A DNA stretch of 56,077 bases from Flavobacteriaceae bacterium (GTDB lineage Bacteria; Bacteroidota; Bacteroidia; Flavobacteriales; Flavobacteriaceae): positions 1 through 56,077 of the forward strand of contig JADHLZ010000008.1 of NCBI GenBank assembly GCA_016780345.1, written 5' to 3'. The translations under genes and the position numbers were made by a program. The notes under the pieces were generated by a model. It worked only from the letters and a program-made list of their open reading frames with translations, had not been told where the DNA came from and ran no database searches. Numbering within the stretch: the first letter of the stretch is position 1; each line of letters starts with the position of its first letter. Below, in pieces: positions 34,596 through 50,143 of this stretch.

Positions 34596-35418
34596 CCAAG
34601 TAAGTGAAAGATGTTCTAAGATTGTTACTGAATCTTACAGTACCTCGTTTACATTAGCCACAAAAATGCTTGATTTCTCAATAAGACAAGATATATACAA
34701 TATTTACGGATTTGTTCGTTTTGCAGATGAAATAGTTGATAGTTTTCATGAGTTTAACAAAAAAGAACTTTTAAATTTATTTGAAAATGATCTAAAAAAA
34801 TCCATTAATGACAAAATTAGTTTAAACCCTATTCTTAATTCTTTTCAAAAAACCTTATACAAATATGATATTGATTATGAATTAGTAGATAGCTTTTTAA
34901 ATAGCATGAAACTAGATTTAGACAAAAACAAATATTTAAGTAAAAAAGAGTTTGATCAATATGTATATGGTTCAGCTGATGTTGTCGGATTAATGTGTCT
35001 TAAAGTATTTGTTAAAGGAGATCAACAACAATATGAAGAACTAAAACCTTATGCAATGTCTCTTGGTTCAGCTTTTCAAAAAGTAAATTTTCTGAGAGAT
35101 TTAAAAGCAGATCATGATGGGCTAAACAGAAGTTATTTCCCAAATTTAAATATTGAGAAATTTGACGAGAGTTCAAAACAAAGAATTCTTAAAGAAATCG
35201 ATAATGACTTTTCTTATGCATTAAAAGGAATTTTCAAATTACCATCTTCAGCAAAATTTGGAGTATATACTGCTTATAAATATTATTTAAAACTTTTAAA
35301 TAAATTAAGAAAAACTCATCCATTAAAAATAAAATCATCCAGAATTAGAGTTTCTAATTATCAAAAAGTTGATGTTTTGGCAAGATCTTATTTAAGATAT
35401 AGACTTAATATTTTATAA
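34579..35418 (+). CDS. crtB: Phytoene synthase
   Basis: CrtB joins two geranylgeranyl diphosphates into phytoene. The 279-residue squalene/phytoene synthase-fold protein has SYSTSFTLATKML near the start, the first aspartate-rich motif FADEIVDSF and the second FLRDLKADHDGLNRSYFP. I use the ATG at 34579-34581, since a TTG one codon earlier is less likely. It overlaps the crtI tail by 17 bases and shares one base of its TAA stop with the crtZ start (TAATG). It forms one transcript with its neighbours. Confidence 0.92.
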   Translation: MIKLFDQVSERCSKIVTESYSTSFTLATKMLDFSIRQDIYNIYGFVRFADEIVDSFHEFNKKELLNLFENDLKKSINDKISLNPILNSFQKTLYKYDIDYELVDSFLNSMKLDLDKNKYLSKKEFDQYVYGSADVVGLMCLKVFVKGDQQQYEELKPYAMSLGSAFQKVNFLRDLKADHDGLNRSYFPNLNIEKFDESSKQRILKEIDNDFSYALKGIFKLPSSAKFGVYTAYKYYLKLLNKLRKTHPLKIKSSRIRVSNYQKVDVLARSYLRYRLNIL

Positions 35419-39063: not shown

Positions 39064-39822
39064 GTGATTAATATATCTATAATTGGAACTGGAAACGTAG
39101 CATATCACTTAAGTAATGCTTGTTTAAATAATAAAGAAATTAATTTAAATCAATTGTATGGAAGAAAAAACAAACTTCCAGTTAAATTTAACCAATCAAT
39201 AAATTACACTTCAGATTTAGGGAGTCTAAAACCGTTTGATCTTTGTTTAATATGTGTAAGTGACGATCAAATTGAACATATTTCAAATAAAATAAAGGCT
39301 GAACCGTATAGCATAATATTGCATTGTTCTGGTTCAACTTCAATAAATGCTTTAAATCAGCATTCTAATTTTGGTGTATTTTATCCTGTTCAAACTTTTA
39401 GTGTAGGCAAAAAGATAGATTTCAATAAGATTCCAATAGCAATTGAAAGTAATTCAAAAAAAAATTTAAAAAAAATTAAAGATTTTGCTTGTTTACTTTC
39501 AAAAAAAGTAATTGAAGCTAATAGTGAACAAAGACAATCTATTCACGTTGCAGCTGTTTTTGCTAGTAATTTCACAAATTATATGAGAATTATTGCAGAC
39601 GAAATACTAGAAAACAATAATATAGATACTAAAGTATTAGATCCATTAAGTGAGGAAACGGCAGAAAAATTAAAATTTTTAAACCCTAAAGACGCACAAA
39701 CCGGACCAGCTCTTAGAAACGACATAAAAACTATGAAAAAACATTTAAATTTACTAAAAGGCTCTAGTCATCAAAAAATATATAAGATAATTAGCTCAGG
39801 AATAATAAAATTAAAAAAATGA
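39064..39822 (+). CDS. Rossmann-like and DUF2520 domain protein
   Basis: This 252-residue protein has an N-terminal dinucleotide-binding motif ISIIGTGNVAYHLSNA and a C-terminal helical DUF2520 domain (HVAAVFASNFTNYM through the final GSSHQKIYKIISSG). It resembles NADP-dependent oxidoreductases of the F420-linked family and ketopantoate-reductase-like folds; the substrate is unknown. The start codon is GTG (39064-39066), the first codon that fits. The stop overlaps kdsC in ATGA. Confidence 0.82.
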   Translation: MINISIIGTGNVAYHLSNACLNNKEINLNQLYGRKNKLPVKFNQSINYTSDLGSLKPFDLCLICVSDDQIEHISNKIKAEPYSIILHCSGSTSINALNQHSNFGVFYPVQTFSVGKKIDFNKIPIAIESNSKKNLKKIKDFACLLSKKVIEANSEQRQSIHVAAVFASNFTNYMRIIADEILENNNIDTKVLDPLSEETAEKLKFLNPKDAQTGPALRNDIKTMKKHLNLLKGSSHQKIYKIISSGIIKLKK

Positions 39823-40340
39823 ATTATAAGGAAAAGTTAAATAAAATAAAAACATTTGTATTTGATATTGATGGTGTATTTACAGATGGTAAAATTCTTG
39901 TTGATAGTAAAGGTAACGAATCTAGAAATTTTAATACAAAAGATGGTATTGCAGTAAAAATGGCAATAGATCTTGGATATAATGTTGCTATTATTACCGG
40001 TGCAAATAATGCAGGAATTAGGTTAAGGTTAAACCGCTTAGGTGTTAAAAATGTTTACATTAATTCTTATGACAAAGTGAAAGATTTAAATGATTTTGCA
40101 GAAAAAAATAAAATAGATTTAAATGAAACTGTTTATATGGGAGATGACCTTCCAGATATTTTCCCAATGAAATTAGTTTATCTCAAAGTTTGCCCATTCG
40201 ATGCAGCCCCTGAAGTAAGAGAAATTTCAGACTACATTTCAAATAAAAAAGGTGGTAAAGGTTGTGTAAGAGATTTAATAGAACAGACTCTTAGATTACA
40301 TGGCAAATGGAATTTGAATAAAAAAAATCAAAATATTTGA
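39819..40340 (+). CDS. kdsC: 3-deoxy-D-manno-octulosonate 8-phosphate phosphatase (KdsC)
   Basis: KdsC removes the phosphate from KDO-8-phosphate, giving KDO for lipopolysaccharide. The 173-residue C0-type HAD protein has the aspartate pair FDIDGVFTDGK, GIAVKMAIDLGYNVAIITG and the metal motif YMGDDLPD. The C-terminal CPFDAAPEVR segment is characteristic. The start overlaps the preceding gene in ATGA; the frameshifted maf gene starts 3 bases after its stop. Confidence 0.93.
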   Translation: MNYKEKLNKIKTFVFDIDGVFTDGKILVDSKGNESRNFNTKDGIAVKMAIDLGYNVAIITGANNAGIRLRLNRLGVKNVYINSYDKVKDLNDFAEKNKIDLNETVYMGDDLPDIFPMKLVYLKVCPFDAAPEVREISDYISNKKGGKGCVRDLIEQTLRLHGKWNLNKKNQNI

Positions 40341-40343
40341 TTA

Positions 40344-40930
40344 ATGTTCCTAAATAAATTAGAAAACTATAATGTTTTACTTGCTTCAAATTCAAAAAGA
40401 AGACACGAATTATTATCACAACTGAATATAAATTTTAGTCTAATCAATCAGAAAACTGACGAATCTTTTTCAGAAAAATTAAAAGAAGATCAGATAACTG
40501 ATTATTTGGCAAAAAAAAATCTTCATTCTTTCTAAAAAAATTAAAGAAAAATGATATTCTCATAACTTCTGATACAATAGTATGGCATAAGAATAAAGCA
40601 CTTGGAAAACCTAAAAGTAAACAAGAAGCATTCAATATGATTAAATCTTTAGAAAACGATTACCATCAGGTCATATCTTCAATCTGTATTTCAACTTTAA
40701 AAACTCAAGTTATTGTTAATGAAAAAACAAAAGTTTATTTTGACAAAATAAACGAAGATGATTTACTTTATTATGTAAATAGCTCTGATGTGACAGACAG
40801 AGCCGGTGGTTATGGAATTCAAGACTTTATTGGATCTGTTGTTATAAGTAAAATAGAAGGAAGTTATAATAACGTATTAGGATTTCCAACAAATAAATTT
40901 ATTAAAACAATAAATTCAATGGATCTATGA
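40344..40930 (+). pseudogene. maf: Maf-like nucleotide pyrophosphatase, frame broken at an A9 run
   Basis: Maf proteins hydrolyse non-canonical nucleoside triphosphates. The N-terminal part reads LLASNSKRRHELLSQLNI from the ATG at 40344, but that frame ends at TAA 40533-40535. The rest continues in the -1 frame: SDTIV with the catalytic aspartate, GKPKSKQEAFNMI, DRAGGYGIQ and the final PTNKF, stopping at 40930. The break is at nine A bases (40511-40519). One extra A gives a normal protein of about 195 residues. It may be a homopolymer sequencing error, slippage that restores the frame, or a real mutation. All motifs are otherwise intact. Confidence 0.8.
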
Positions 40931-41018: not shown

Positions 41019-42680
41019 ATGTCATCAATTGATTGGTTTATTTTAATTGGAACAATATCCTTAATAGTCATTTACGGAGTATATAAAACAAGAAAATTTA
41101 ATACAATAAAAGATCATCTTAAAGGTGGTGAATCCGCTAATTGGTTGACAATCGGACTTTCTGTTATGGCTACTCAAGCAAGTGCTATTACTTTCTTATC
41201 TACACCTGGTCAAGCCTTTGATGAAGGAATGGGTTTTGTGCAATTTTATTTTGGACTACCACTAGCAATTATTGTAATTTGTATGGTTTTTATCCCAATT
41301 TACCATAAACTTAAAGTTTACACTGCTTACGAATATTTGGAACAAAGATTTGACGGGAAAACTAGAACTTTAGCTTCAATCTTATTTTTAGTTCAAAGGG
41401 GATTGGCGGCTGGAATAACGATTTTTGCACCAGCAATTATTTTATCTACCATATTAGGTTGGGATTTAAAAATATTAATTTTTACAATTGGCACATTAGT
41501 TATTATTTATACAGTAAGTGGAGGAACAAAAGCAGTAAGCATAACCCAAAAACAGCAAATGTTTGTTATCATGATTGGTATGCTAATAGCATTTGTTCTG
41601 ATATTGAATTCTTTACCTGAAAATATCAACTTTAGTAATGCTTTAAAACTAGCAGGAATTGGAGGAAAAATGGAGATTGTAGATTTTTCTTTTGATATTG
41701 AGAAAAAATATACTTTTTGGAGTGGAATTACAGGTGGATTTTTTTTAGCTCTTTCTTATTTTGGAACTGATCAAAGTCAAGTTCAAAGATACCTTTCAGG
41801 AAAAAGTGTTAAAGAAAGTCAATTAGGTCTAATGTTTAATGCTGTTTTAAAGATCCCGATGCAATTCTTTATTTTATTGACTGGCGTAATGGTATTTATT
41901 TTTTTCGAATTCAATGATGCCCCCATAAACTTTAATCCTCAGGTTACTAATTATTTAGAGGAAGTTCAAAACGAAGATTATTTAATAGAAAAAGAAAAAT
42001 TCATTTCATTAAGACAAGAAAAAAAAGATTTACAGTTAAAATATATACAAAACAATGATCCGTTAAATGCATATCCAACCGATAAAAAGATTGCTGAACT
42101 ACATACTCAGGAGAAGGAAATCAGACAAAAGGTAAAAGCAATCACAAATGAAATAGCTCCCTCCTCTGTTGAAACAAATGATTTAGATTATATTTTTATT
42201 TTTTTTATTTTAAACTATTTACCCAAGGGTTTAATAGGATTGTTACTTGCGGTAATTCTCAGTGCAGCCATGTCGTCTACAGCATCAGAACTTAATGCAT
42301 TATCTACTACAACTGTCATTGACTTATATAAAAGAAATCACATAGTTAAGAAATCTGACAATCATTATTTAAACGCATCAAAATGGTTTACAGTAATGTG
42401 GGGAGTAATTGCAATAATATTTGCAAGCGTTGGGAGGTTATTTGAAAACTTAATCGAACTAGTTAATTTAATTGGATCACTTTTTTATGGTACTGTTTTA
42501 GGAATTTTTATTGTTGCTTTTTTCTTTAAAAAAATAAATGGAAATCAAGTTTTTTACGCAGCATGTTTATCTCAAATTTTGATATTTTTTATATACGGAT
42601 TTTTTGAAATTGGCTACCTATGGTTGAACTTTATTGGAGCAATAATGACTATACTATTTTCTAATATCTTTAAAAAATAA
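41019..42680 (+). CDS. Sodium:solute symporter (SSS family)
   Basis: This 553-residue protein has the SSS fold with about 13 membrane helices. The conserved region GGESANWLTIGLSVMATQASAITFLSTPG lies near residues 35-65, and GGTKAVSITQKQQMFVIM near 165-182. A hydrophilic, charged insert of about 75 residues (about 306-380) lies between helices 8 and 9. These proteins take up solutes with sodium; the substrate, perhaps a sugar or organic acid, cannot be told. It follows the 29-residue ORF by 2 bases. Confidence 0.9.
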   Translation: MSSIDWFILIGTISLIVIYGVYKTRKFNTIKDHLKGGESANWLTIGLSVMATQASAITFLSTPGQAFDEGMGFVQFYFGLPLAIIVICMVFIPIYHKLKVYTAYEYLEQRFDGKTRTLASILFLVQRGLAAGITIFAPAIILSTILGWDLKILIFTIGTLVIIYTVSGGTKAVSITQKQQMFVIMIGMLIAFVLILNSLPENINFSNALKLAGIGGKMEIVDFSFDIEKKYTFWSGITGGFFLALSYFGTDQSQVQRYLSGKSVKESQLGLMFNAVLKIPMQFFILLTGVMVFIFFEFNDAPINFNPQVTNYLEEVQNEDYLIEKEKFISLRQEKKDLQLKYIQNNDPLNAYPTDKKIAELHTQEKEIRQKVKAITNEIAPSSVETNDLDYIFIFFILNYLPKGLIGLLLAVILSAAMSSTASELNALSTTTVIDLYKRNHIVKKSDNHYLNASKWFTVMWGVIAIIFASVGRLFENLIELVNLIGSLFYGTVLGIFIVAFFFKKINGNQVFYAACLSQILIFFIYGFFEIGYLWLNFIGAIMTILFSNIFKK

Positions 42681-50091: not shown

Positions 50092-50143
50092 GTGGTAAAT
50101 ATATTATAAATACTATTAATTGATTATTTTGCGGATTAAATTT

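Follow-up and report, generated by a model that had tools for sequence, protein, structure and literature searches.

Does the cell from which this DNA was derived still carry a working maf gene, when the assembled sequence splits that gene into two reading frames meeting at a run of nine adenines? The preliminary description of the locus regarded recoding and a homopolymer error as equally plausible and also considered a pseudogene. We followed up this question in the window, i.e. the whole analysed stretch of 56,077 nucleotides, which represents one contig (C37) of a 1.39 Mb genome in 46 contigs that is 78% complete and has 25-30% G+C. The two explanations did not keep their equal standing, and the evidence favours a contraction of the run by one base, which is either an artefact or a recent mutation and would at most be passively rescued by slippage. 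The features of the locus are as follows (names of the neighbours from reading their translations).

39819-40340: KdsC-like HAD phosphatase, upstream neighbour of maf
40344..40535, + strand: N-terminal maf frame of 63 aa, with ATG at 40344 and TAA at 40533-40535; carries the signature residues S..R and E
40511..40519, + strand: A9 homopolymer, the site of the frame break; A10 in the closest relative
40511..40930, + strand: C-terminal maf frame of 139 codons plus stop; carries the catalytic Asp (SDT), the GKP Lys and the GIQ motif
41019-42680: sodium/solute symporter family protein, downstream neighbour of maf

Judged from its sequence, the split gene is a genuine YhdE-like Maf gene lying in two frames. 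In the Pfam search, the stretch 40344-40535 matched positions 2-51 of the Maf profile PF02545 (E 1.6e-8) and the stretch 40511-40930 matched positions 50-186 (E 1.5e-34). Both matches are above the gathering score of the profile, and the two halves abut at the A run, exactly where the preliminary description had placed the break. The two-frame match is far above chance, because the second part shares 96% identity with the unbroken Maf protein of the nearest relative. The frame switch is confined to the A9 run and there is no other break within the gene. The N-terminal part had been described as extending to 40535; the + frame is indeed open from 40344 to this position, but it has left the Maf frame from 40518 on, over its last few codons (C-terminus LAKKNLHSF followed by the stop codon), and the true Maf N-terminal part stops within the A run. 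Taken together, the two frames contain all motifs that had been reported, namely the complete signature S-R-E-K-D-K as well as SDT and GIQ, in accordance with the YhdE subfamily to which the Maf protein of B. subtilis (1ex2) and YhdE of E. coli (4p0e) belong. In contrast to these proteins, the frame in the window breaks at the very run that holds the signature Lys, and the six residues are not found in one continuous frame.

The position of the break matters for the function of the product. Alignment to the solved structures places the third Lys of the KKK stretch in the relatives on Lys53 of B. subtilis Maf, i.e. the last AAA codon of the run encodes the signature Lys in the intact relatives (Lys53 in B. 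subtilis Maf, Lys52 in E. coli YhdE). Lys53 is one of six signature residues of the Maf family and its replacement by Ala inactivates the enzyme (PMC3899018). In the zero frame of the window, Asn takes the place of this Lys and the frame terminates after four further residues; the equivalents of Lys53, Asp70 and Lys82 are missing there and are present in the second frame. Going by the mutagenesis in PMC3899018, the 63-aa product should be unable to act as an active Maf, because three of the six signature residues are missing from it, namely the signature Lys, the catalytic Asp and the second Lys. A further, undamaged maf copy was looked for in the genome, which is 78% complete, and not found. 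The A run itself exists only owing to the Lys-Lys-Lys stretch in an AT-rich genome with many AAA codons.

As the preliminary description had proposed, the gene was compared among close relatives. Of 21 further genomes in the genus, 19 were found to carry it, with 20 copies in total; all of these read through the site without interruption and encode 195-204 aa. In the nearest relative, G015 (AG-447-O05, contig CACPPV010000020.1), A10 takes the place of the A9 of the window; its DNA identity to the window is 91% over the main aligned block, and downstream of the break the protein identity amounts to 96%. Of the 20 copies, ten have A10 preceded by a codon with a final A, six have A9 preceded by a codon with a different final base, and in the remaining four the run is shorter or interrupted; the frame is kept in each case. 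Hence, as far as the aligned sequences tell, it is the protein (typically L-A/S-K-K-K-S) that is conserved at the site and not a frameshift signal.

The age of the break can be approached by the substitution pattern between the window and G015. Within 30.8 kb of aligned DNA, the maf break is the sole frame-breaking indel that lies inside a gene, is uncompensated nearby and is not located at a gene end. After the break, dN/dS amounts to 0.064 compared to 0.078-0.103 in four other nearby genes, while the value of 0.215 before the break rests on only five changes of each kind. According to this comparison, normal purifying selection has acted on the sequence downstream of the break ever since the divergence of the two lineages; therefore, the break must be very young or absent from the cell. 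An old pseudogene in decay would explain the broken frame and the 63-aa product without half of its signature residues, but it is practically ruled out by the single lesion, the 96% protein identity to an intact copy downstream of it and the dN/dS of 0.064. The intactness of everything after the break had been put forward as an argument against an old pseudogene before, and this argument is strengthened by the low dN/dS and the 20 intact copies in the genus.

Programmed recoding, in which the shift would be maintained and slippage of the ribosome (-1) or during transcription would yield full-length Maf at a fixed ratio, perhaps to regulate the Maf level, had been called plausible. The slippery heptamer A AAA AAA is present at 40511-40517 in the phase that had been given for it, and the downstream frame is intact and under selection. 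However, the heptamer is uninformative, since it also represents Lys codons, and in most relatives such heptamers are simply Lys codons. None of the 20 same-genus copies carries or needs the shift. Furthermore, shuffled sequences fold as well as the RNA surrounding the run and the RNA downstream of it (z -0.37, +0.05), a weak hairpin (-3.9 kcal/mol, z -1.41) does not exceed them by a clear margin either, and inspection by eye of the region close upstream of the run revealed no Shine-Dalgarno-like hexamer. Programmed recoding is thus unsupported, because the shift occurs in no relative and no stimulating structure was seen, and we regard it as very improbable. Some -1 slippage at the A AAA AAA sequence is possible in principle.

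To judge how common such breaks are, proteins of relatives were searched for matches in two frames, with the proteins of G015 and of a further sister assembly, G017, being used on the genome of the window. The survey extended over roughly 1.10 Mb from the genome of the window, roughly 0.82 Mb from G015 and 0.80 Mb from G017. In the genome of the window, 675 gene segments were covered, which comprise 665 kb and 136 A/T runs of at least nine bases, and maf was the sole genuine break among them; the search with G015 and G017 proteins for a genome-wide pattern of A-run breaks, as it would point to a slippage-tolerant lifestyle, gave nothing beyond maf in these segments. Two other candidates, at window position 50120 and in a dapD-like gene elsewhere in the genome, most likely result from over-extended starts of the query ORFs. 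Of approximately 430 shared genes, six are broken by a one-base change in G015, in most cases at a short A/T run; they are carB, purB, dapB, priA, an nqrC-like gene and the gene of a small protein (named from their translations). These breaks are probable assembly artefacts, because several of them lie in core biosynthetic or replication genes (carB, purB, dapB, priA) that should be indispensable to a living cell. Three of the six have their counterparts on a single contig in the genome of the window. In G017, nearly twenty breaks were found on 0.8 Mb of contig C3, including rpsL, rpsG, ffh, dnaE, gcvP, argG and the proteorhodopsin gene, and this assembly appears to contain uncorrected indels. 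With one break in 675 segments, the assembly of the window is therefore cleaner than its sister G015. For the GORG-Tropics pipeline for single amplified genomes, 3.0 indels per 100 kb were reported in benchmark cultures (PMC11247762); AG-447-O05 seems, by its name, to stem from this pipeline, while the genome of the window may represent another data type. Since these base rates of artefacts suffice, a single false break within 665 kb of coding DNA is to be expected and not surprising.

Against this background, we lean towards an artefact of amplification, sequencing or assembly as the origin of the A9 run, with a confidence that is somewhat above even. An ordinary YhdE-like maf would then have its A10 coding run read as A9, the missing base having disappeared through slippage on the A run at the stage of whole-genome amplification, library preparation or assembly, and the cell's own gene would probably be intact and yield a normal nucleotide pyrophosphatase of 195 aa. 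The case resembles the artefactual homopolymer indels of draft and single-cell assemblies such as G015 (PMC11247762), in which an A/T run is likewise altered by one base while the rest of the gene is intact; it differs from those in G015 by being the single case in its genome and by a run that is longer than most of theirs. It also speaks against an artefact that the one break falls on one of the longer runs, where replication slippage in vivo is expected as well. Hence, a real and recent contraction from A10 to A9 in this cell or strain has to be taken seriously, and we assign it a considerable, though less than even, probability. In that case, maf would now be mostly off, and a minority of full-length Maf could be made when the RNA polymerase adds an extra A or the ribosome slips by -1 on A AAA AAA, both of which may occur. 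Long runs are mutation hotspots, and the longer the run, the more indels are formed and bypassed (PMC3812077); transcriptional insertions, the direction needed for maf, rise exponentially with the length of A/T runs in E. coli and Buchnera, and insertions by RNA polymerase predominate on long A/T runs (PMC5574713). Frameshifts of this type were reported in eight genes of Blochmannia vafer (PMC3017870). Moreover, an E. coli yhdE knockout is viable (PMC4319933) and loss of Maf is probably tolerated, and no other break occurred among the 136 tested runs of at least nine bases. Nevertheless, relaxed selection has left no trace in the gene, the A9 allele is found in no second genome among the 21 others of the genus, and similar artefacts are common in the sister assemblies. 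On balance, the artefact appears slightly more likely than the recent contraction.

Bypass of homopolymer frameshifts is well documented (PMC3812077; for Blochmannia PMC3017870), and passive transcriptional slippage could rescue a real contraction, which would be already known biology. The poly-A frameshifts of Blochmannia and Buchnera (PMC3017870) share with the window the one-base indel, the long A run, the intact and selected gene and the AT-rich genome. However, the preliminary description's likening of this organism to AT-rich endosymbionts misfits, because proteorhodopsin is encoded in the genome and photolyase-like genes in the window (names from reading the translations), which suggests a free-living member of the marine plankton; the designation as marine Flavobacteriales-type is based on gene content and relatives. 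Furthermore, a single genome is affected in the present case, with no allele conserved across species. That A9 is the true, established allele of the species, with full-length Maf being made by slippage in such a free-living bacterium, seems very unlikely to us. Should it be true that A9 is fixed, the gene would provide a test case for slippage rescue outside endosymbionts and would extend their poly-A rescue to free-living AT-rich plankton. In a more general sense, single frame breaks at A/T runs number from one to many per assembly in AT-rich uncultured genomes and also affect genes that are probably indispensable; as long as the reads are not consulted, neither gene loss nor recoding should be concluded from them.

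The neighbourhood of maf, with the phosphatase and symporter genes listed above, is ordinary housekeeping. Some irregularities were noticed in the corresponding regions of the relatives. The start of contig C20 of G015 (1-230) matches window positions 35021-35250 in inverted orientation and then jumps to 39894 onward, which looks like an amplification chimera or an inversion. Contig C13 of G010 contains two maf regions approximately 10 kb apart and in opposite orientation, which are 83% identical over approximately 3.4 kb; possibly, two strains were joined in a chimeric contig, or the inverted duplication is real.
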